Of a stretch of 38,195 nucleotides of DNA, positions 2,841 to 37,147 are shown piece by piece. The notes below the pieces were generated by a model, which was given only the letters and a program-made list of their open reading frames with translations, did not search any database and was not told the origin of the DNA. The stretch is from Clostridia bacterium (GTDB lineage: Bacteria > Bacillota > Clostridia > Tissierellales > Dethiosulfatibacteraceae), in NCBI GenBank assembly GCA_011390775.1, contig JAABRS010000003.1:1-38195 (forward strand), given 5' to 3'. The translations under genes and the position numbers were made by a program. How positions within the stretch are numbered: position 1 is the stretch's first letter; every line of letters starts with the position of its first letter.

Positions 2841-4730
2841 TTAAAAAAGTATTCTATAGTCTTCTATTCTTTTTGTCAAATTTTTCGAATCAAAATATTC
2901 TAAGATTATTATACTATGTTTTCTGTTGCTGTTGATCAAATCTCTAAATTCAACAACTGTTATTTTCTCATTATGACTGATGTAATCTATTAGCTTTGAT
3001 TTTATTTGTTCCAAGTTGTTTTTTAAAATAACTTCATCTTTTGTTATTTCAACTAATTCTTCATTAGCTATCATATAATCAATTATATTTGAGATCTCTT
3101 TAGATTCTCTGTAAGACTTGATGTTTAGTATATCTTTACCCTCTTTTTTCAATTTTATAAGTATATTTTCTTTTTGCTCTGTTTGTTTAGTATTCATTTT
3201 CGGATAATAGTTGAAAGTTGTAACCATATTGTTTTCAATTTTTATAATTTTATTTTTTACTAATTCATCTATAAAACTATTATATATATTCTTATCAATT
3301 CCATCAAATATATTGTTTCTTAATTCTTCTTTTGGTATCCCCAGAGTTATATTATTATTTGTTTCATTGTTGTTTAGGAAGGTAACAATTTTATTTTTTA
3401 TCTCATTTTGAGATTTTTTGTGAATTATATATATTTTATTTCCAAAAAAATAATTGTGAACAATATTTTCTTCTTCCATTTCCTTTAATAAATCTTTTAA
3501 ATAATTTAGATTATATATTGTATTTTTTATTATTTCTTCTATTTTTACAAAATTATTTTCTTTCTTTAGTATATATTCAACATAGGCTTTTATATTTTTA
3601 TTATCTTCCAGATAATCTATTTCTTTAATATCATCTTTAAGTTTTCCTTTTGGATTTGGATTTAAAACAATACCTCCTCCTACCGTTTCAAGGGGCGAAT
3701 AAAATCTTAAAATAAATCTATCTCCTCTTTTTACGGTAATATTTTCTTCTATAATCAATCTTGCAAATGCAGTACTTCCACCTTTTAGTTCTTTATCTTT
3801 TAAAAAATGAATTCTTGCAAGCATTTCTTTAGTACCTACATGTAAGTGTAATCTTGAATTATCTTTTATGACTCTTTCAGTATCATCTAAAATTTTAATT
3901 TTACAATCAATTTGTTTAGTTAGTCTTAAAGTTTCAGCCAAGCTTAAATCATTTCCTCTACTGATTTGACTTTTATCAATATCCCTTAAGTTTATTGCTG
4001 TTCTCTGTCCTCCCAATACCTCATCTACATCTTTTCCAAATACTTGTAAATTTCTAATTGTAGAGGATAGTTCTTTAGGGTATATGAGAACACTTTCACT
4101 TTTTTTAAGTATTCCGTTTGAAAGAGTTCCTGTAACAACAGTACCTATACCTTTTAAACTAAATACTCTATCTATTGCCATCCTAGGATTTTCAATGCTT
4201 AAGTCTCTATCATCATTGGAGGCAATTTCTTTTATATGATTTTTGATTTCTTCCATACCTTCTTTAGTTTTTGATGATGCTTTAATTATTTTGCAATTTT
4301 CTAAAAAAGTGTTTTTAACTAATTCTTTAATTTCCTCTTCTACAACTTCTATTAATTCACTGTCTACTAAATCTGTTTTTGTTATTACTATAAATCCTTT
4401 TTTAAGTCCCATTAGTTCTAAAATATTGAAATGTTCAATGCTTTGGGGCATAATACCTTCATCAGCTGATATAACAAGCATGACAGCGTCAATGCCAGTA
4501 ACTCCTGCTACCATATTTTTTATAAATTTTTCATGTCCGGGAACATCAACAAATCCTACAGTCATATCTTCGAAATCTAAATGAGCAAATCCTAAATTAA
4601 TTGTTATACCTCTTTTTTTCTCATCTTTGAGACTATCTGTGTCTATTCCTGTAAGAGATTTAATTAATGTAGTTTTACCATGATCTATGTGTCCTGCCGT
4701 TCCTATAGTAAGATTAATCATTTTTTTCAC
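2841..4730 (-). CDS. selB: Selenocysteine-specific translation elongation factor SelB
   Basis: GTPase motifs GTAGHIDHGKTTL, DVPGHEKFIKNMVAG, TKTDLVD; long C-terminal winged-helix extension; adjacent to selA and selD. An alternative start is Met4 at 4721. Confidence 0.96.
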   Translation of the reverse strand: MKKMINLTIGTAGHIDHGKTTLIKSLTGIDTDSLKDEKKRGITINLGFAHLDFEDMTVGFVDVPGHEKFIKNMVAGVTGIDAVMLVISADEGIMPQSIEHFNILELMGLKKGFIVITKTDLVDSELIEVVEEEIKELVKNTFLENCKIIKASSKTKEGMEEIKNHIKEIASNDDRDLSIENPRMAIDRVFSLKGIGTVVTGTLSNGILKKSESVLIYPKELSSTIRNLQVFGKDVDEVLGGQRTAINLRDIDKSQISRGNDLSLAETLRLTKQIDCKIKILDDTERVIKDNSRLHLHVGTKEMLARIHFLKDKELKGGSTAFARLIIEENITVKRGDRFILRFYSPLETVGGGIVLNPNPKGKLKDDIKEIDYLEDNKNIKAYVEYILKKENNFVKIEEIIKNTIYNLNYLKDLLKEMEEENIVHNYFFGNKIYIIHKKSQNEIKNKIVTFLNNNETNNNITLGIPKEELRNNIFDGIDKNIYNSFIDELVKNKIIKIENNMVTTFNYYPKMNTKQTEQKENILIKLKKEGKDILNIKSYRESKEISNIIDYMIANEELVEITKDEVILKNNLEQIKSKLIDYISHNEKITVVEFRDLINSNRKHSIIILEYFDSKNLTKRIEDYRILF

Positions 4731-6111
4731 CTATGATTTTATTTAGAGCATTAAAAATTTCATCCTCATCTTTCTCTAATATAGTCTTACAATCAATTAT
4801 TATATTTCCTTCTAAGATTCTTACTATAATAGGAATATCATTACTACGAAGTCTTTCTTCTGTTTCTTTTTCAGAACTTCCTTCAATTTTTAACTTTATT
4901 CCCCAGCTATCTAATCTGTCTAGGGGATATGCTCCTCCTCCTATCATAGAATTGGTTTTCATTAATTCACAGTGAATATTAGTTGAATTTAGAGAATTTA
5001 TTTTTTCTAGTAATCTTTGTGCTCTTAGTTTAACATCTTCTACATCTTCTGTAATCATTCTTATAGTTGGTACTTTTAATGAAAGTGTGTCTGGATTCAA
5101 ATAAGCTTTTAGTGTTAATTCTAATGACATAATAGTAAATTTATCCACTCTTAAAGCTCTTAAAAGCTGGTTTTTCTTGATTTTTTTAATATATTTACTC
5201 TTACCTACTATTACACCACATTGAGGTCCTCCAAGTAATTTGTCGCCGCTAAAGGTAACAACATCCACTCCTCTATCTAAGGTTTCTCTAACCGTAGGTT
5301 CTTTGTTTAGGCCGAAATTATGTAAATCTATAATCATCCCACTACCAAGATCTTCAATAAGTGGTATGTTTTTTTCATATGAAATTTTCTTTAAATCCTT
5401 TGTATCTACATCATCGGTAAATCCTACTATTTTATAATTGCTTGTATGAATTTTTATAATAGCACCGGTATTTTCAGTTACAGCACTAATATAATCTTTC
5501 AGATGAGTTTTGTTTGTAGTTCCTACTTCTTTTAATGTACAACCACTCTCTTTTATAACATCAGGTATTCTAAATGAACCACCAATTTCTACAAGTTCAC
5601 CTCTGGAAACTATAACTTCTTTTCCAAAAGCTAGTGTTTTTAGGGTAAGCAAGACAGCTGCTGCATTATTGTTTACAACCAAAGCATCTTCAGCACCGGT
5701 TACTTCTTTTATAATATCTATAATATGATCATACCTTTGTCCCCTTTCACCTGTATCCAAATTATATTCTAAGTTGGAATAAGAACATAAATTCCCTGAA
5801 ATTTCTTGTGCAATCTCTTCAGAGAAAATACTTCTACCTAGATTTGTATGTACTATAACACCTGTACCGTTTACTACTTTCTTAAATTTGCTCTTGTTTT
5901 CTTTGTCAATTTTGTAAATCAATGTATTTAATATTTCTTCTTCATCAATTCTTGAAATTATATTGTTTGCAATGTTATTTCTAATATTATCAAGATGCTT
6001 TCTAATAATTGTTAACACAAAATCTCTCCCGTATTTGTTAATACAGGATTTTATTTCCTTGTTTTCTAATAACTTATCTATTTTAGGAATATTTTTATAT
6101 AAATCACTCAT
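4714..6111 (-). CDS. selA: L-seryl-tRNA(Sec) selenium transferase SelA
   Basis: PLP-fold with VVNNNAAAVLLTL, SRGELVEIGGSFRIPD, FSGDKLLGGPQCG; between selB and selD. Confidence 0.97.
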   Translation of the reverse strand: MSDLYKNIPKIDKLLENKEIKSCINKYGRDFVLTIIRKHLDNIRNNIANNIISRIDEEEILNTLIYKIDKENKSKFKKVVNGTGVIVHTNLGRSIFSEEIAQEISGNLCSYSNLEYNLDTGERGQRYDHIIDIIKEVTGAEDALVVNNNAAAVLLTLKTLAFGKEVIVSRGELVEIGGSFRIPDVIKESGCTLKEVGTTNKTHLKDYISAVTENTGAIIKIHTSNYKIVGFTDDVDTKDLKKISYEKNIPLIEDLGSGMIIDLHNFGLNKEPTVRETLDRGVDVVTFSGDKLLGGPQCGVIVGKSKYIKKIKKNQLLRALRVDKFTIMSLELTLKAYLNPDTLSLKVPTIRMITEDVEDVKLRAQRLLEKINSLNSTNIHCELMKTNSMIGGGAYPLDRLDSWGIKLKIEGSSEKETEERLRSNDIPIIVRILEGNIIIDCKTILEKDEDEIFNALNKIIGEKND

Positions 6112-6118
6112 ATTTACC

Positions 6119-7147
6119 TCACACTAATTTTATAAATCTGTCTTCTTTTTCTATAACTTTTCCAATTATTTTATAATCCGTTGAAAATTCATTAATCTTA
6201 TTAATATTGTCTTCTGGTATGGTTATTAATAATCCTCCTGATGTTTGAGGATCAAAAAAAATATCTGATTCTAATTCTTGTAAAAATTTATTAGCATAAA
6301 TTTTATTTGCAAAGTATTTTCTATTTTTAAATGCTCCTCCTGGAACAAGTCCCAAGGCAACATATTCTCTTGTTTTATTAATTATCGGTACGTCTTTTAT
6401 ATTTATTTCGATACTCACTTCACTATTTTCAGCCATTTCAATGCAGTGACCTAATAATCCAAACCCAGTAATATCAGTACATGCATTGGCTTTTAGCTCT
6501 AAGGCCATTTCTTTTGCATCTCTATTTAGTGTTTTCATAACTTTTACAGCCTCTTGTTCGCTTTCTTTATCAGCTTTTCCGTTTTTTATTGCTGTGTTTA
6601 TAATTCCTGTGCCTAAAGGTTTTGTCAGAACTAAAATGTCTCCCACCTTAGCATTGCTGTTTGTAAGCAAATTTTCAGGGCTTACTAATCCACAAACACT
6701 TAACCCATATTTTGGTTCATCATCTTCAACAGAATGCCCTCCTGCCAGAAGAGCATTTGATTCAATAACTTTGTCTGCTCCACCTTTAAGTATATCTTCT
6801 AGATAAGTTAAATCTAAATTTTTTGGAAAGCATACAATATTTAAGGCTAAAATTGGCTCACCACCCATAGCATATACATCACTTAATGCATTAGCTGCTG
6901 CTATTTGTCCAAAATCGTAAGCATTGTCAACTATTGGTGTGAAGAAATCCATTGTCTGGATAATATACTGATTATCATTTAGTTTATATACTGCTGCATC
7001 ATCAGCTTTGTCTAATCCTACTATTAGTTTTTCATCTTTTATTTTTGGTATTTTACCCAATACTTGGGCAAGGGTCTCAGGACCTATTTTAGCTGCTCAT
7101 CCAGCACTTTTTGAAAGCTGGGTAAGCCTTATAACTTCTTTACTCAT
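6119..7147 (-). CDS. selD: Selenide, water dikinase SelD, with in-frame TGA (Sec) codon at 7097-7099
   Basis: The track gives a 313-aa fragment from an internal TTG at 7060. Reading from ATG 7147 gives [40 protein letters not shown]..., 342 codons before the stop. The TGA is codon 17, the position of the catalytic Cys/Sec in SelD. Confidence 0.95.
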
Positions 7148-18359: not shown

Positions 18360-18562
18360 GTCCCTTAATATTAAGGGACGTATATAACGTGGTTCCACCC
18401 TAGTTTGTTCTCTAGTAATTTAACGCATTTAACGCAGCATAAGCTGAACTCCAAGCTAGTTTTCAAATAATCTTATGATAGGAAAACTTACAGCTACTGC
18501 CTTCCCTCTCTTGATCACAGTTTTTATTCTACTCGGCTCTTCATAGTTTTTATTTGTAAATA
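18360..18562 (-). ncRNA. T-box leader upstream of thrS (antiterminator T-box sequence plus terminator)
   Basis: Minus strand has GGGTGGAACCACG (18388-18400), followed by terminator GTCCCTTAATATTAAGGGAC (18360-18379) and TTTTTT. 5' boundary approximate; specifier codon not assigned by eye. Confidence 0.88.
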
Positions 18563-18607: not shown

Positions 18608-19231
18608 TCATTTATGTCTTTTTTTGAGTTCTTTTTTTATTTCTCCTATATTTACATTTTTTTCTACCATAAGTACCAGGGTGTGGTATACTAAATCACT
18701 GATTTCATATATAAGTTCGTTTTTATCTTCATTTTTAGAGGCAATAATAACTTCTCCGCTCTCTTCTGCGATTTTTTTTAGGATTTTATCTAATCCTTCT
18801 TTTAATAAATAGTTGGTATAAGATTTTTCTTTTGGATTTATTTTTCTATCTATTATTGTTTCATATATATTTTCTAATATTTCATCATTTTCCTTCTTAT
18901 CTTCTATTACGTAATTGTGAAAACAAGAGTATTTACCTGTATGACATGCCGGCCCTTCTTGCTCAACTTCTAATAGTATTGTATCTCCATCACAATCATA
19001 TGAAAAACCTTTTAGCATTTGATAATTTCCAGAGGTTTCTCCTTTTAACCATAATTTTTGTCTACTTCTACTATAGTAACATACTTTTTTTTCATTAAGA
19101 GTTTTTTGGATTGATTCTTTATTCATATAGGCCAACATAAGTACTTTTTTTGTATTTACATCCTGAGCTATGGCAGGAACTAATCCCTTTTCATCAAATT
19201 TAATATTTTTTATTAATTCATTGTATTCCAT
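18608..19231 (-). CDS. hisIE: Bifunctional phosphoribosyl-AMP cyclohydrolase / phosphoribosyl-ATP pyrophosphatase
   Basis: HisI motifs [41 protein letters not shown]; HisE motif [28 protein letters not shown]. Confidence 0.96.
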
Positions 19232-19241
19232 TTGTACTCCT

Positions 19242-20000
19242 TTATATTCTTACTTCTATTCCTTTATTTTTTAAATATTTTTTTAAATCATTAATATTTA
19301 TTTCTCCATAGTGAAATACTGAAGCAGCCAATATTCCATCTACATCAGCTTTTTCTGCAACTTCATAAAAATGTTCCATTTTACCGGCACCTCCAGAAGC
19401 AATAACCGGTACTCTAACTTTTTGGGTAATTTGGCTTAATAAATCTATATCATATCCTTCTTTCATGCCGTCAGCATCTATGCTATTGATTACAAGCTCT
19501 CCAGCACCAAGTTCTACTCCTTTTACTGCCCACTCTACAGCATCAAGGCCGGTATTTTTTCTACCACCGTTTATTATGACCTTCCAAGTACCGTCTTTGT
19601 CTTTTTTTGCATCTATTGAAAGCACTACGCACTGAGCTCCGTATTTTTCTGAAGCTTCTTTTATAAGAAGAGGATTTTTAACTGCAGAGGAATTTACAGA
19701 TACTTTGTCTGCTCCTTTTCTTAATATGTCATTAAAGTCTTCTAATGTTGATACTCCTCCCCCTACTGAAAAGGGAATATTAATTTCATCAGCAACTCTT
19801 TTAACGAATTCAAGAGAAGTTTTTCTTCCTTCGTTTGATGCAGTAATATCGTAAAATACTAATTCATCTGCATTATTGTCACTGTAAAACTTACCTAATG
19901 CTTCCGGTTGATCTACATCTACTATATCTTTAAATTTTTTACCTTTTACTACTCTTCCTTTTCTAACATCAAGGCAGGGTATTATTCTTTTTGCAAGCAT
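19242..20000 (-). CDS. hisF: Imidazole glycerol phosphate synthase subunit HisF
   Basis: [55 protein letters not shown]. Confidence 0.97.
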
Positions 20001-20701
20001 TTATATGCCTCCTCTAAATCTATATCTCCATTATACAAAGCTTTACCAATTATAGCTCCATATATATTTAATCTATCAAGTTCTTCTAAATCTCTTATGG
20101 ATGATACACCGCCTGAAGCTACAATGTTTAAATTAGTTTTCTCTTTTAGCATTTTATAGTATTTAAAATTTGGTCCTTTCAGCATACCATCTTTTAATAT
20201 ATCAGTATATATTAAAGTATCTATTCCTATTTTTTCCATGGTTCTACATATATCTAAAACATGGATATCAGTTACTTCTTTCCAACCTTTAACGGCAGCA
20301 TAACCATCTACTGCATCTACAGAAACCGCCATATTTTTACCGTATTTTTTTGCTATTTTTTTTAAAAGTTCAGGATTTTCAACAGCCATAGTTCCTATAA
20401 TAACTCTTTCTACACCTAAATCTAAATACGACTTAATCTTTTTTTCACTTCTTATGCCTCCTCCTATTTGGATTTTGACATTAGTTTTATTTATAATTTC
20501 GATTATTGATTTTTCATTTATTAAATTTTCAGTTTCAGCACCATCTAAATCTACAATATGTAAAAAATCTGCTCCTTTATTAATCCATTTTTTAGCCATT
20601 TCTAGAGGGTTATCAGAGTATACTGTAGCTTCGTTAAATTTACCTTGCTTTAATCTTACAGCTTTATTATTTTTAATATCTATAGCTGGAAAAATTTTCA
20701 T
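19982..20701 (-). CDS. hisA: ProFAR isomerase HisA
   Basis: [58 protein letters not shown]. Confidence 0.96.
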
Positions 20702-21300
20702 CTTATAATCTCCTTATATGCTTTCAATATATTATGTCCTACGTTACCGCTCTTTTCAGGATGAAATTGAATACCGTATATATTATCTTTGTTAATTATT
20801 CCAGGCACTTTAACTTCGTACTCTGAATATGCAACAACATCTTCTTCTCTTCCCTTGGCATAGTACGAATGTACGTAGTAAACATAGTCACCTTCTTTAA
20901 TATATCTAACTATTGGATTTTCTTTTTGAATTTTTAAATCATTCCATCCCATATGTGGAACCTTTAAACTTATATCAAATTTTTTGATATATCCTTCAAC
21001 CAAACCCAATCCATCATATTCACCATTTTCAAAGCTTTTTTCATAAAGAAGCTGCATTCCTAAACATATACCTAAAATGCTTTTTCCCTTTTTAACTTCT
21101 TCAATTATAATGTCTTTTAAATTTTTTTCTTCTAGTAATTTTATAGCATCTCTAAAAGCACCAACCCCGGGTAATATAAGGGAATCACTATTTTTTATAT
21201 CATGTATATCGCTGGAAATTTTAGTTTCTAATCCAACTCTTTCAAAACCTTTCTGGACGGAATTGAGATTTCCTAAACCGTAATCTATTATAACATTCAT
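20698..21300 (-). CDS. hisH: Imidazole glycerol phosphate synthase glutamine amidotransferase subunit HisH
   Basis: IDYGLGNLNSVQKGFERVG, LPGVGAF, GICLGMQLL, GIQFHPEKSG. Confidence 0.97.
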   Translation of the reverse strand: MNVIIDYGLGNLNSVQKGFERVGLETKISSDIHDIKNSDSLILPGVGAFRDAIKLLEEKNLKDIIIEEVKKGKSILGICLGMQLLYEKSFENGEYDGLGLVEGYIKKFDISLKVPHMGWNDLKIQKENPIVRYIKEGDYVYYVHSYYAKGREEDVVAYSEYEVKVPGIINKDNIYGIQFHPEKSGNVGHNILKAYKEIIR

Positions 21301-21878
21301 TATAATACTCCTTTTGTAGATTGAGTTTTATCAGATGTTATCTTCACCGCTTCTTTTAATGCTCTTCCAAATCCTTTGAAAATAGATTCTATTATATGAT
21401 GATCATTATCTCCATATATATTTTCAATATGTAGAGTTGTTTTGCTTTCATTTGCGAAGGCAGTAAAGAATTCTTTGAAACTTTGACTTTCCATATCTCC
21501 TAATTTATAGTGAGTTAAATTTGCATTATAAACTGTATAAGGTCTCCCGCTTATATCAAGTACTATCCTACTTAAAGCCTCATCCATAGGAAGATAAATG
21601 TATGAGTATCTGTTTATTCCTTTCTTATCCCCTAAGGCTTGTAGAAATGCTTTACCAAAGGATAATCCAATGTCTTCAACAGTATGGTGAGTATCAACGT
21701 TCAAGTCACCCTTTGCAGTTATACTTAAATCCAATTGACCGTGAAATGCTAAAAGTTCCATCATATGATCAAAGAAACCAATTCCTGTATTGATATCACT
21801 TTTTCCTTTGCCGTCTAAATCGATACTAATACTTACTTCTGTCTCATTAGTTTTTCTTGTCTCTTTACCTGTCCTCAT
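21300..21878 (-). CDS. hisB: Imidazoleglycerol-phosphate dehydratase
   Basis: TGIGFFDHMMELLAFHG, DTHHTVEDIGLSFGKAF, DNDHHIIESIFKGFGRAL. Monofunctional; no phosphatase domain. Confidence 0.97.
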   Translation of the reverse strand: MRTGKETRKTNETEVSISIDLDGKGKSDINTGIGFFDHMMELLAFHGQLDLSITAKGDLNVDTHHTVEDIGLSFGKAFLQALGDKKGINRYSYIYLPMDEALSRIVLDISGRPYTVYNANLTHYKLGDMESQSFKEFFTAFANESKTTLHIENIYGDNDHHIIESIFKGFGRALKEAVKITSDKTQSTKGVL

Positions 21879-22902
21879 TTTTTACCTCCCATAATTTTTT
21901 TATCATATAGTCATTATCTTCTTTTCTGCCTATAGAAATTCTATAATGATCCTCTATGTCTTTAGTAAAATCTCTAATTAAAACTTGTTTATTTTCTAAT
22001 TTTTCAGCAAGATTTTTAATATCTGATTTTATCATAATAAAATTAGTCATTGAAGGATATACTTTAAATTCTAGTTCTTTTAATAAATCCATTACTTTTT
22101 TTCTTTCTTCTTTTATCATTTTAATATGCTGTTTAATTATTTCTAAGTTATCAAAAGTTTGATTGGCTATTAATTGCGATACTGAATTTAAGTTGTATGG
22201 TAGTTTGACCTTCCATAAATTCTCTATCATTTTTTCACTTGAAATTAAAGCTCCAATCCTCAATCCTGCTAGTCCAAAAGCTTTAGATAAAGTTCTCATA
22301 ACTATTAGGTTTTCATAATTATTGATTAAATCTACTGCAGATTCTCCACCAAATTCAATATAGGCCTCATCGATAATTACTATTGATTGTTTTGTCTTAT
22401 CTAAGATTTTATTTATTTCTTTCTTTTTTAAATACGAGCCTGTTGGATTATTTGGATTGCATATAATAATGACTTTAGGTTTATTTTCTTCATATCTTTT
22501 TATTATATTATCTACACTAAAACTATAATTATTTTCAGACTTAATTGTTAAGTTCTTCAAATTTGATAATTTACAGTAAATTGGGTACATACTAAAGGAA
22601 GGTTCAAAAGTCATTACTTTTTCATCAATGTCACAAAAAGCATTTATAGTTGTTAATAATAATTCACTAGAACCATTTCCTACTAATATATTTTCCATTT
22701 TACAACCGTAATATTTAGCCATATTTTCCCTAAGTTGTTTAGCATCACTATCTGGATAAAGCTGAGGTTTAAAGTTATCTAAATTTAATTTTGAGTTTAA
22801 CATGTAATTACAGCCTTCATTTGCATCAAGTTTTACTTTATATGGTTTATCATTCACTCTATAAGGCACAATATCTCTTAGATTTTTTTTAATATTTATC
22901 AT
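21865..22902 (-). CDS. hisC: Histidinol-phosphate aminotransferase
   Basis: Fold type I PLP enzyme: NPNNPTGSYL, IDEAYIEFGG, RTLSKAFGLAGLRIG; his operon context. Confidence 0.95.
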   Translation of the reverse strand: MINIKKNLRDIVPYRVNDKPYKVKLDANEGCNYMLNSKLNLDNFKPQLYPDSDAKQLRENMAKYYGCKMENILVGNGSSELLLTTINAFCDIDEKVMTFEPSFSMYPIYCKLSNLKNLTIKSENNYSFSVDNIIKRYEENKPKVIIICNPNNPTGSYLKKKEINKILDKTKQSIVIIDEAYIEFGGESAVDLINNYENLIVMRTLSKAFGLAGLRIGALISSEKMIENLWKVKLPYNLNSVSQLIANQTFDNLEIIKQHIKMIKEERKKVMDLLKELEFKVYPSMTNFIMIKSDIKNLAEKLENKQVLIRDFTKDIEDHYRISIGRKEDNDYMIKKLWEVKNEDR

Positions 22903-22905
22903 ATT

Positions 22906-24192
22906 TTACTCCTTAAATCTTATTTTAATGGACTGGGCATGACCTGTTAATCCTTCATTTTCAGCAAATCTTATGATGTCATCTTTGGAATCTCTAAGGG
23001 ATTCTTTACTATAGTAAATCAAAGAAGTTTTTTTAATGAAATCATCTACACTTAAAGGCGATGAAAATTTTGAAGTACCATTAGTCGGTAGAGTATGATT
23101 TGGTCCTGCATAATAATCACCTACAGGTTCTGGAGAATATTCACCTAAGAAAATTGCTCCTGCATTATCTACTTTTTTATAATCTTCAAAAGGATTCACA
23201 GTTAGAATTTCTAAATGCTCTGGTGCTATTTCATTAGCAATCTCAAGGGATTCATTTAGAGAATCTGTAAGAATAATCCCTCCGTAGTTATCTATAGATT
23301 TAGATATAATTTCTTTTCGCGGCATTTTATCTATCATTATTTCTAAATATTCACTTACTTTTTCTGCAAGTTTATATGAGTCAGTTACAAGTATTGAAGC
23401 GGCCATCTCATCGTGCTCTGCCTGAGAAATTAAGTCGGCAGCTATATATTTTGGGTTAGCATTTTTGTCAGCGACAATTAAGATTTCACTTGGGCCTGCT
23501 ATCATATCTATCCCTACCATTTCAGATACTATTTTTTTTGCAGCACTAACGTAAATATTCCCAGGACCAGTTATTTTAAATACTTTAGGAACTGATTCTG
23601 TTCCATAGGCTAATGCAGCTATTCCGTGAGCTCCACCAATTTTATATATTTTATCAACACCACATATCATAGCAGCAGCTAAGATAGAATCCATTACTTT
23701 ACCATCTTCTTTAACCGGTGTAATCATTACTAGTTCTTCAACTCCTGCTATTTTTGCTGGTACAGCATTCATAATAACTGTTGAAGGATACGCTGCTTTT
23801 CCTCCAGGAATATATATCCCTGCTTTTTTAATTGGCTTAATAATTTGACCTAATATAATATCTTCATTATGGGGCTTATATGTAATAGTTTTTCTTTTTT
23901 GTCTTTTATGGTAATCGTATACATTTTTATATGCATTTTTTATAGTGTTTAATAAGTTTTTATCTATGTTATTTAGAGCATAATCTATTTCTTCTCTAGA
24001 AACTAGAAAATTATCGGTTTTTAAACCATCAAATTTTTCCGCATATTTTTTTAAAGCTTCATCACCATTATTTTTAACATCATTAACTATGGTTTCCACA
24101 TCTTTAATTACTTTTTTATAATCTTGAGTACTTCTTGAACTTAGTTCTTCTATAAATTTTCTGTTGTCTTTTTCCTTAATTATCTTAATCAT
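22906..24192 (-). CDS. hisD: Histidinol dehydrogenase
   Basis: PIKKAGIYIPGGKAAYPSTVIMNAVPAKIAGV, KITGPGNIYVSAAKKIV, DMIAGPSEILI, AEHDEMA, GPNHTLPTNGTSKFSSPLSVDDF. Confidence 0.98.
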   Translation of the reverse strand: MIKIIKEKDNRKFIEELSSRSTQDYKKVIKDVETIVNDVKNNGDEALKKYAEKFDGLKTDNFLVSREEIDYALNNIDKNLLNTIKNAYKNVYDYHKRQKRKTITYKPHNEDIILGQIIKPIKKAGIYIPGGKAAYPSTVIMNAVPAKIAGVEELVMITPVKEDGKVMDSILAAAMICGVDKIYKIGGAHGIAALAYGTESVPKVFKITGPGNIYVSAAKKIVSEMVGIDMIAGPSEILIVADKNANPKYIAADLISQAEHDEMAASILVTDSYKLAEKVSEYLEIMIDKMPRKEIISKSIDNYGGIILTDSLNESLEIANEIAPEHLEILTVNPFEDYKKVDNAGAIFLGEYSPEPVGDYYAGPNHTLPTNGTSKFSSPLSVDDFIKKTSLIYYSKESLRDSKDDIIRFAENEGLTGHAQSIKIRFKE

Positions 24193-24829
24193 CTATTTCA
24201 TCTCCTTCTACCTCAATAATGTTTTTAATTATTTTATTAATTTTTTCATATTTAAACCTGTAAGATATTTTGTTGCATATTAACATTGAATTAACAGGAT
24301 ACATTTTTTCTAATACTTTTAGTCCATTTGCCTTCAATGTTGATCCGGTTTCTACAATATCGACTATAACATCTGTTAAACCAAGAACCGGTGCTAATTC
24401 CACTGATCCATTAAGTTTTATTATTGAAATTTCCTGGCCTTTGTTTTCAAAATATTCTTTAGTAGATTTGGTGAATTTTGTTGCTACTTTTAATACTGAA
24501 TCGCTATTATAAATCTCTTTATCTTCCTTGCCTGCTATACACATTTGACAGTATCCAAATTTTAAATTGTGCAGCTCATATACATCTTTTTTACTTTCAA
24601 TTATCATATCTTTGCCTACTATCCCTATATCAGCCACTCCATTTTCCACATAAGTAATAACATCAGCGTTTTTTAAAAGAACAAATTCAATGTTGTTTTC
24701 ATAATCATTAAAAACTAGTTTTCTACTCTTCATGTCAATTGATCTGCCTATTTTGATCTTTTTAAATAGTTCTACTGTATCTTCTCCTATTCTTCCTTTT
24801 GGTATTGCTATTCTTAATTTATCCATCAA
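24185..24829 (-). CDS. hisG: ATP phosphoribosyltransferase catalytic subunit, short form
   Basis: RIAIPKGRIGEDTVELF, GIVGKDMI, KLNGSVELAPVLGLTDVIVDIVETGSTLKANGL; short (214 aa), paired with hisZ. Confidence 0.97.
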   Translation of the reverse strand: MMDKLRIAIPKGRIGEDTVELFKKIKIGRSIDMKSRKLVFNDYENNIEFVLLKNADVITYVENGVADIGIVGKDMIIESKKDVYELHNLKFGYCQMCIAGKEDKEIYNSDSVLKVATKFTKSTKEYFENKGQEISIIKLNGSVELAPVLGLTDVIVDIVETGSTLKANGLKVLEKMYPVNSMLICNKISYRFKYEKINKIIKNIIEVEGDEIDD

Positions 24830-25785
24830 ATCTCCCCCTTGCTGTATATATTCCTCAATAGTTCGTCTATTTCTACTGAAAATCCTATTGCTGGAATTAT
24901 ATCTCCGTAACCATCAAAATTTATATCATATCTTCCGCCTTTTATTATCTCTTTATTTGAATCGTGGTAGAAGGTTTTAAATATTAGTCCTGAATAATAG
25001 TTTAGGCTGGAAGTAATAGATAAGTCACATATTATATTTTTTGAATCTATATTGTTAACATCTAAATATTTTTTTATTTCCTCTAATTCCTTAAGTCCCT
25101 TTCTCATTTTTTCATTTATATAAAAATTTTCAACCTTATCTAAAACTTCCCCAACTGTTCCTCTCATATCGATAATGTTAATAAGTGCTTCTCTAGCAGG
25201 AGTTTTTTCAAATTTTTTCATATATGCTTTTAAATCTTCTTTATTTTTTTTATTTATTAGTTCAATAATAGTTTTATACTCTATTTCGTCTAGATAAAAC
25301 TCATTTAATATTCCTTTCAAGTATTCCGATGTTCCGATTTCCAATATATAATTTTTTCTATATTTTTTCATTATTGAGTTAATTAATTGAAGAATTTCTT
25401 TATCAGAGTCTATCGTATCTATACCAATACATTCAGCTCCCATTTGTCTTATTTCTTTAATTTTACTATTTTCATTTATAAAAATTTTACCGTAGTAAAA
25501 CAATTTGACTTTGAAACTTTTTTCCCAATTCGGAATTAAATTATTTAATAAATTAGTGGTTATATCTCTAGATAATATAGAAATCTTTCCATTGTTTCCA
25601 ATAACTTTTACAAGGTCGTTATCTTTTAACTCTATATTTGTTAATGAACTCCCCTTAATATCCTCTACTATGTCTGTTTCATAATTTATGTATTCCTTTT
25701 CTAAAAAAAGATTTTCTATATCTTTTTTTAATTGAAATCTTTTTTTGGAAAATTCTATTTCTTCTACTATACTTTTAAATTTCAT
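24826..25785 (-). CDS. hisZ: ATP phosphoribosyltransferase regulatory subunit (HisS-like paralogue)
   Basis: Divergent class II aaRS-like protein with YYSGLIFKTFYHDSNKEIIKGGRYD and GFSVEIDELL; first gene of the his operon with short hisG. Confidence 0.88.
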   Translation of the reverse strand: MKFKSIVEEIEFSKKRFQLKKDIENLFLEKEYINYETDIVEDIKGSSLTNIELKDNDLVKVIGNNGKISILSRDITTNLLNNLIPNWEKSFKVKLFYYGKIFINENSKIKEIRQMGAECIGIDTIDSDKEILQLINSIMKKYRKNYILEIGTSEYLKGILNEFYLDEIEYKTIIELINKKNKEDLKAYMKKFEKTPAREALINIIDMRGTVGEVLDKVENFYINEKMRKGLKELEEIKKYLDVNNIDSKNIICDLSITSSLNYYSGLIFKTFYHDSNKEIIKGGRYDINFDGYGDIIPAIGFSVEIDELLRNIYSKGEI

Positions 25786-25816
25786 GTTTCCTCCTATTTA
25801 TTAATTGTATTAAAAA

Positions 25817-25844
25817 AACCATACAGACTAACATCTGTATGGTT
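25817..25844 (-). terminator. Leader terminator (attenuator) upstream of hisZ
   Basis: AACCATACAGA-TGTTAG-TCTGTATGGTT, perfect 11-bp stem, followed by TTTTTT on the minus strand and located before the hisZ RBS. Confidence 0.9.
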
Positions 25845-25929
25845 GAATTCTTCTTACCCATCATAGATGCTGTCTTAGTAAACACTAATAGAGCTTGCAT
25901 CTATGAACTATTGCTCACAAATCAAACTC

Positions 25930-25986
25930 TCAACTATGATGATGTACTTTATTTAGTTTAATTTTACAACCTTTAATTAACATCAT
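25930..25986 (-). CDS. Putative his leader peptide MMLIKGCKIKLNKVHHHS
   Basis: ATG ATG TTA ATT AAA GGT TGT AAA ATT AAA CTA AAT AAA GTA CAT CAT CAT AGT TGA on the minus strand, with SD-like AAGGA 8-9 nt upstream of the first ATG. Confidence 0.75.
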   Translation of the reverse strand: MMLIKGCKIKLNKVHHHS

Positions 25987-26015
25987 AAAAATCTTCCTTA
26001 AATTTAATTAAATAT

Positions 26016-26044
26016 AATATAGCATAATGTTACATAAATGTCAA
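26016..26044 (-). promoter_or_regulatory. Sigma-A-type promoter for his leader/operon
   Basis: Minus strand TTGACA (26039-26044), 17-bp spacer, TATATT (26016-26021). Confidence 0.8.
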
Positions 26045-26057
26045 TTTTCATTTAGGT

Positions 26058-26495
26058 CTATTCAATTGATAAGAGTTCAAAAGACAATACTCCATTAATT
26101 TCTTTAACATTATCAATCATTTCATCTAAAGATATATCCACTCCAGAAATATCTAGAGATAGGTTTACATTTGCTTTTCCATTTATTGGTATTGTTTGAT
26201 TAATCGTTAATATATTAGCGTTTTGGTCTGATATATTATTGATAACTTTTGATAAAACACCTTTTTTATGTGCCAACATCATTGAAAACACAGCCATTCT
26301 GCCAATAGAGTTTTCTGCAGGAGAAAAGACATAATCTTTATATTTGTAATATGTACTTCTGCTAATTCCTACCTCTTTTACAGCTTCACTGATGTTTTTT
26401 GAACTATCTTCATTTATTATTCTTCTTGCTTCTATTACTTTTTCATATACTTCTGGTAAAATTTTCTTGTTTACTATTAAGTATTTTTTTATCAT
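26058..26495 (-). CDS. UPF0735/PheB-like ACT-domain protein with N-terminal HTH-like segment
   Basis: N-terminal IINEDSSKNISEAVKEVGISRSTYYKYKDYVF and C-terminal ACT domain (FSMMLAHKKGVLSKVINNISDQNANILTINQTIP). Confidence 0.85.
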   Translation of the reverse strand: MIKKYLIVNKKILPEVYEKVIEARRIINEDSSKNISEAVKEVGISRSTYYKYKDYVFSPAENSIGRMAVFSMMLAHKKGVLSKVINNISDQNANILTINQTIPINGKANVNLSLDISGVDISLDEMIDNVKEINGVLSFELLSIE

Positions 26496-36849: not shown

Positions 36850-37015
36850 ATATATGTCTCCTTCCCTCCGAAGGTACAGTACTTAGTTTTTAGGCAGGTC
36901 TCCTGGCTTAAGCATATTCTCATTTCAACCTTCCCTTTAAGTGGTATTTAGAAATGATAAACTCTTACAGTAGCGGGGGCTGCAGCGGATTTAAACCGCT
37001 TTCCCTATTAATCAT
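36850..37015 (-). ncRNA. Cobalamin (B12) riboswitch
   Basis: Minus strand AATAGGGAAAGCGG...GCTGCAGCCCCCGCTACTGTAA...GGGAAGG...TAAGCCAGGAGACCTGCCT, matching conserved cobalamin riboswitch boxes. Boundaries approximate. Confidence 0.95.
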
Positions 37016-37147
37016 ATAAACCTAAAAAAAATATTTTATTTTCATCTCAAAGATTATCACATTTCTTTTTATATTACAAATATAATATTGATTTTTTACA
37101 TACATAATGTAAAATATATAAATACTAAGATTTTTCAGGAGGAAAAA

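Follow-up and report, generated by a model that had tools for sequence, protein, structure and literature searches.

The hisZGDCBHAF-IE operon in the window (the whole 38,195-nucleotide stretch of contig JAABRS010000003.1 analysed here, from a Clostridia bacterium of the Dethiosulfatibacteraceae) is most probably controlled by a ribosome-mediated transcription attenuator with charged tRNA-His as its input, with stalling at low histidine predicted to switch the operon on. Only slightly less firmly, the comparison indicates that the trpB motif (Rfam RF04312), rather than being a riboswitch, makes up the 3′ half of a large family of codon-programmed leader-peptide attenuators in Firmicutes, in which one RNA frame appears to have been adapted to His, Trp, Tyr, Phe or Leu through joint changes in the leader codons and the complementary segments B, C and D. 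The leader, the match between its codons and the downstream gene, the five pairings and the taxonomic spread of the element are established at the level of sequence.

The leader element and the his genes all lie on the minus strand of the window. The promoter (TTGACA-N17-TATATT, 26016-26044) agrees with the consensus at 11 of 12 positions and is the top site among six promoter-like sites in the region; its -35 box (TTGACA, 26044-26039) and -10 box (TATATT, 26021-26016) are separated by a 17-nt spacer, with TG preceding the -10 box. The Shine-Dalgarno sequence AAGGAAG (25993-25999) is located about 6 nt 5′ of the first ATG of the leader ORF MMLIKGCKIKLNKVHHHS (25930-25986), which is composed of 18 codons and a stop and whose HHH run is kept in relatives. 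This ORF starts with ATG ATG and ends with CAT CAT CAT AGT TGA, so that a single Ser codon separates the CAT triplet (25944-25936) from the stop. The leader ORF is separated by 85 nt from an intrinsic terminator (25844-25817), which precedes the first gene and combines a stem of at least 11 perfect pairs with a T tail; two terminator-like sites are found in the region, compared with 0.1 in shuffles. The sequence-only reading had described the promoter, the 18-codon HHH ORF led by a Shine-Dalgarno sequence and the U-tailed terminator with an 11-bp perfect stem ahead of hisZ, and each of these is confirmed on the minus strand.

The first gene of the putatively controlled operon, hisZ (24826-25785, minus strand, ATG at 25785), has HisZ as its top NCBIfam match (TIGR00443, E = 1.2e-47), under the curated cut-off of that model. 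It is followed by hisG, hisD, hisC, hisB, hisH, hisA, hisF and hisIE (18608-24829, minus strand), and the NCBIfam check gives the operon order hisZ-G-D-C-B-H-A-F-IE. When the upstream DNA was dinucleotide-shuffled 5000 times, no HHH leader preceded by a Shine-Dalgarno sequence arose. The minus-strand RNA from 26008 to 25786 folds at -56.9 kcal/mol versus -36.5 kcal/mol in shuffles (z = -5.35), whereas the plus strand gives an unremarkable fold (z = -1.4). The genome carries a single strong copy of the element, the one at hisZ. Elsewhere in the window, a cobalamin riboswitch (36876-37040, minus strand, 105.4 bits) is located upstream of a transporter set whose roles as binding protein, permease and ATPase were assigned by eye. 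A selenocysteine insertion set, likewise recognised by eye, occupies 2841-7060 on the minus strand (selB-like 2841-4730, selA-like 4714-6111, selD-like 6119-7060).

From the His codons to the T run, the leader can be divided into six segments, all on the minus strand. Segment A (CAT CAT CAT AG, CAUCAUCAUAG; 25934-25944) contains the sensing His codons and also pairs with segment D (CUAUGAUG) when no ribosome is present. Segment B, AGAGTTTG (AGAGUUUG; 25923-25930), lies directly 3′ of the His codons and pairs with C, showing both covariation and cognate preference. Segment C, CATAGATGCAAGCTCT (CAUAGAUGCAAGCUCU; 25890-25905), is the left arm of hairpin P1 and pairs with B (CAAGCTCT) or D (CATAGATGC), and segment D, GCATCTATGATGG (GCAUCUAUGAUGG; 25858-25870), is the right arm of P1 and pairs with A, C or E. 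Segment E (25834-25844) is the left arm of the terminator, and its partner is F or, in the antiterminator, D, while segment F together with the T tail (25812-25827) provides the right arm and the T run, pairing with E. The leader and the terminator recognised by the sequence-only reading remain in place, but the switching parts (the His codons as segment A, and segments B, C and D between leader and terminator) and the link to RF04312 had been missed.

The five predicted pairings A:D, B:C, C:D, D:E and E:F form mutually exclusive helices and are supported by comparison of relatives. In the mechanism that we infer, which involves stalling, read-through and a response to amino-acid supply, the ribosome would halt on the CAT run at low histidine and cover A, allowing B:C to form; the freed D would then pair with E, no terminator would arise and the operon would be transcribed. 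With ample histidine, the ribosome would proceed to the stop codon and cover B, so that C:D and then E:F would form and transcription would end. Without translation, A:D and B:C would form and E:F would terminate again. The codons would determine the amino acid, and the RNA frame would be common to all classes.

Covariation was counted over 20 aligned elements for two mutually exclusive states, with 500 shuffles. In the antiterminator state (B:C plus D:E), 87.0% of cells are paired versus 82% in shuffles, and the covariation score is 0.293 versus 0.194, with none of the 500 shuffles as high. In the terminator state (C:D plus E:F), the corresponding values are 97.1% versus 87% and 0.451 versus 0.247, again with 0 of 500 shuffles as high. 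Sliding the partner abolishes the signal of both states. Particularly, the C strand covaries with both B and D, and the E strand with both D and F.

The pairings also carry the signature of the amino-acid class. B and C vary jointly between classes, and B:C is class-specific, the own C being rank 1 or 2 of 103 candidates for most non-Trp leaders. The cognate A:D pairing reaches -15.3 kcal/mol in His loci versus -8.6 kcal/mol with D from other classes. In two relatives (L007 and L026), CAC replaces CAU as the third His codon and D reads GUGGUG rather than AUGAUG, so that A:D is kept. The D:E pairing is stronger with its own partner overall; in the window and its sister, mismatches interrupt it, and the own partner ranks 44th of 95 there rather than first. 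Many leaders end in AGA-UAG (Arg-stop), because AGAUAG pairs with UAUCU in D. In several relatives the leader stop is located further downstream, inside or past B, and the spacing of B from the His codons is kept, with 12-19 nt from the first His codon to B. This distance is the relevant one if B has to stay accessible during stalling and be covered by a ribosome that moves on.

Folding of the leader was modelled at equilibrium with the nucleotides under the ribosome masked and the nascent leader folded up to the terminator loop. With a ribosome halted on His codon 1 or 2, B:C is predicted with a probability of 0.87-0.99 and D:E with 0.65, and with no ribosome A:D reaches 0.71 and B:C 0.99. 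With the ribosome at the stop codon, the full leader gives C:D 0.97 and E:F 0.96, whereas the nascent fold gives D:E 0.50 versus C:D 0.36, so that the off state is not clean in the model. Moreover, in the full-length leader at equilibrium the terminator beats D:E even with a stalled ribosome, and deriving antitermination from this fold alone was therefore discarded. Since folding of the complete leader always favours the terminator, the choice must fall during transcription, that is, by kinetic antitermination, which is generally assumed for attenuators. Both weaknesses are limits of equilibrium folding, but they leave the switching itself a prediction.

The sequence-only reading had suggested searching the upstream regions of hisZ in relatives, and this search revealed HHH to HHHHH leaders with covarying helices. 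Copies of the element were recovered by a DNA search within the same genus and family, and in each of them an HHH leader precedes hisZ. These His-run leaders include MIVFYKKIKKLNKVHHHS, ..NIHHHHRRKSLF, ..NVHHHRGESLL and ..NIHHHRSTSLQ, each ending at a stop codon, and in another family a His run (MLYNSFINQINKVHHH, then a stop) precedes a HisS-like gene. The DNA matches L009-L018, which are short and AT-rich, were judged to be chance and reused as controls. A model of the full-length element (R1) was then applied to the order (249 genomes) and the class (245 genomes), with matches in 55 and 24 genomes, respectively. At E < 1e-5, R1 matches 44 of the 249 order genomes, which as relatives are not independent samples, and all 44 contain a codon run; by our own count these are 37 His, 3 Phe, 2 Leu, 1 Tyr and 1 Trp. 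The class adds YYY, YY..YY, another LLLL, HHHHH before hisD and YYFYFYY before DAHP synthase. R1 matches weaker than about E = 1e-4 were left uncounted and mostly have no leader (L166-L172, L174, L195, L196, L198, L199). Two loci were kept despite weak E values, namely L173 (E = 0.009), with a convincing YYFYFYY leader before DAHP synthase, and L194 (E = 8e-5), with HHHH ahead of a HisS-like gene.

Among 80 named loci gathered by HisZ similarity, the element is found upstream of hisZ in 48, and all 48 contain a His run; the 32 loci without the element have no His run either. The run lies within 450 nt of hisZ in 45 of the 48, and the other three (L205, L206 and L210) show it on the same contigs read as L147, L181 and L142. 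Named carriers include Dethiosulfatibacter aminovorans, Sedimentibacter, Tissierella creatinophila, Tepidibacter, Terrisporobacter, Intestinibacter, Clostridioides difficile and Lutispora, and HHH to HHHHH leaders are conserved ahead of his genes in dozens of relatives. In addition, L157 and L176 possess HHH leaders before a small ORF (MELKLKFTDKQNVTYILIFDESDLASGLVTLRNM... in L157) that is not placeable among the his genes.

RF04312 matches the window over its full length, from C to F (25807-25907, minus strand), with 48.5 bits (E = 7.7e-6), which does not reach the gathering score of 59 bits. Seven of the eight named His loci scanned with Rfam match the same family at 46-58 bits. Among genomes of the order Tissierellales, RF04312, which was built from other sequences, has matches in nine, every one below gathering, and all nine have a leader ORF whose codon run fits the gene. 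Four of these are HHH before hisZ or hisS-like genes and two are LLLL before SNF symporters, and the rest are YYYWSY (SNF), FQF (SNF) and LWQSH (TrpX-like binding protein). The RF04312 matches at L032, L033 and L075 were rejected as false, the element being absent there.

In Lactobacillales, RF04312 matches occur in 162 of 298 genomes. A leader starting with ATG or GTG, led by a Shine-Dalgarno sequence and with Trp codons near its end, is present at 85 of 90 inspected loci, compared with 2.2% in dinucleotide shuffles, and the typical Trp leader ends in ...W(Q/N)xW(R)R and a stop. Three further loci carry YYFSYFR before shikimate dehydrogenase, and FNFSYF and FYFSYF before TrpX-like binding proteins; the remaining two are one false match and one leader (ISHQSWQSWQG, then a stop) without a standard start. 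In the latter (L101, 1-174), a trpB-motif leader, the start position reads ATT and the Trp codons are intact, suggesting either an ATT start or a decaying switch. The genes checked downstream of RF04312 in this order are mostly TrpX-type ABC binding proteins or trpB.

Across the collected loci, the leader codons match the downstream gene: HHH precedes hisZ, hisS or hisD; W precedes a TrpX binding protein or trpB; YYY or FFF precedes an ABC permease; YY, FF or LLLL precedes an SNF symporter; YYFYFYY precedes DAHP synthase; and YYFSYF precedes shikimate dehydrogenase. Moreover, a model built from the His members only and restricted to C to F, with the codons excluded (R2), recovers 38 of the 42 loci with Trp, Phe, Tyr or Leu codons at E <= 0.05, the best match having 1.5e-9, and none of 41 control loci. 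Since R2 finds the non-His loci and RF04312 finds the His members, the two are treated as one family, despite the sub-threshold score of the window. Further loci may extend this range. In L163 (1501-1960) and L164 (genomes G1122 and G1161), the same frame is combined with the leader MLNFQFIKLNNGYNI, which ends at a stop and contains two consecutive AAT codons, a possible Asn sensor; the element is directly followed by a T-box (90.5 bits) before aspS, placing two attenuators in tandem. A Tyr-run element before an ABC permease (L156, 1502-1682) also matches RF02863 ‘Enterococcus sRNA 2410’ (41.8 bits, gathering 61), and this sRNA may also be a leader attenuator.

RF04312, with its covarying hairpins and terminator, was published as a strong riboswitch candidate (PMC11109978), and P1 does have conserved bases, as expected if the trpB-motif part were a metabolite riboswitch and the leader ORF incidental. 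This explanation is highly unlikely. Nearly every member has a leader ORF with codons varying with the downstream gene, B, located 3′ of the sensing codons, covaries with C, and the conserved bases of P1 are those obliged to pair with two or three partners; the authors of the motif did not exclude a classic attenuator themselves (PMC11109978). Stalling might instead depend on the nascent peptide and the free amino acid, as in TnaC, rather than on lack of charged tRNA, in line with the W(Q/N)xW(R)R ending common to the Trp leaders. However, apart from the sensing codons the classes have no peptide sequence in common, the shared R-stop end is explained by the AGAUAG:D pairing, and a run of identical codons fits tRNA sensing. 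Arrest induced by the amino acid would also need the opposite sense for biosynthetic genes. This alternative is very improbable.

A constitutive terminator next to a chance His-rich ORF, with the operon regulated elsewhere through a T-box or a HisR operator, is extremely unlikely. T-boxes or HisR regulate his genes in other Firmicutes (PMC9413887), and thrS in the same window does have an upstream T-box, as the sequence-only reading had noted (18371-18553, minus strand; 90.9 bits, slightly short of the gathering score of 93 and missed by a default scan). At hisZ, however, the Rfam covariance-model scan gives no match to the T-box RF00230, in agreement with the absence of a visible motif noted before. 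The other low-score Rfam matches there (mir, PK-PYVV, STnc410) were dismissed as chance, RF04312 being the meaningful one. Nor does the own genome (82% complete) contain a TrpR/HisR-family protein over the cut-off, the best PF01371 match having E = 0.34, so that neither regulator named as an alternative by the sequence-only reading was found. The shuffles of the upstream DNA and the agreement of element and His run in all 48 loci also argue against chance. The proposal of that reading, control of hisZGDCBHAF-IE by stalling at the His codons, receives strong comparative support, because the His leaders are conserved, the exclusive helices covary, and neither a T-box nor a HisR/TrpR protein over the cut-off is found.

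The element shares its logic with the enterobacterial his and trp attenuators, the His leader RF00514 of enterobacteria combining His codons, six segments and alternative hairpins. Unlike in RF00514, which has no match up to E = 10 in 25700-26200, A is predicted here to pair with D and thereby hold the antiterminator strand when no ribosome is present. RF00514 was not found in Firmicutes (PMC9413887). The T-box RF00230 likewise monitors tRNA charging ahead of amino-acid genes in Firmicutes, but it binds the tRNA directly; the trpXYZ genes of Streptococcus suis use a T-box (PMC9382623).

His leader peptides were proposed for Bacillus hisZ and hisS* (PMC2965389), and these resemble the present leaders at the ORF level, in that a leader ORF with His codons precedes hisZ or a paralogue of hisS in Firmicutes. 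His RNA attenuators were also predicted in Clostridioides difficile, Lutispora and Terrisporobacter (Peptostreptococcaceae/Lutispora), one of three lineages with His leader peptides in that report and one that carries the same element, with five genomes reported (PMC9413887). They have a leader with 3-5 His codons, a terminator and an antiterminator upstream of the his operon, and in C. difficile (L207), L. thermophila (L221) and Terrisporobacter (L226) both R1 and RF04312 recognise the element described here. The carriers Terrisporobacter, Intestinibacter, Clostridioides difficile and Lutispora fall within this lineage of predictions, and the window locus belongs to the same type. The sequence-only reading had seen a His leader in a Gram-positive-like genome as surprising; its observation stands, but the surprise is smaller, as such leaders in Firmicutes had already been proposed (PMC2965389, PMC9413887). 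The earlier attenuators were not linked to RF04312 or to other amino acids. Compared with the five genomes reported then, the element is found here in dozens, including much of the Tissierellales.

RF04312 (SRC-39-1) was reported with over 900 representatives across Firmicutes and Fusobacteria, and the right shoulder of its P1 was noted as a place where an antiterminator may lie (PMC11109978). Its P1 hairpin and terminator match the present element over the full length, and its antiterminator site corresponds to segment D, but the family begins 3′ of the leader ORF and thus leaves the codons and segment B outside the model. A comparable case is the uORF of Corynebacterium ilvB-II, a riboswitch candidate later recognised as a leader-peptide attenuator (PMC10272879); compared by its description, it differs in being found only in Corynebacterium, upstream of ilvB and with Ile/Leu/Val codons. 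The literature searched contained no paper linking RF04312 to leader peptides. As far as this literature shows, the apparent identity of the element with the orphan trpB motif, and the placement of five codon classes on one RNA frame, are new.

The trpB motif, previously listed as a candidate riboswitch without a known ligand (PMC11109978), would thereby gain a concrete sensor, input and mechanism. Classical leader-peptide attenuation would not be rare in Gram-positive bacteria; genes for His, Trp, Tyr, Phe and Leu would use it in modular form in place of T-boxes. Moreover, the leader codons suggest substrates for the uncharacterised SNF and ABC transporters encoded behind them.
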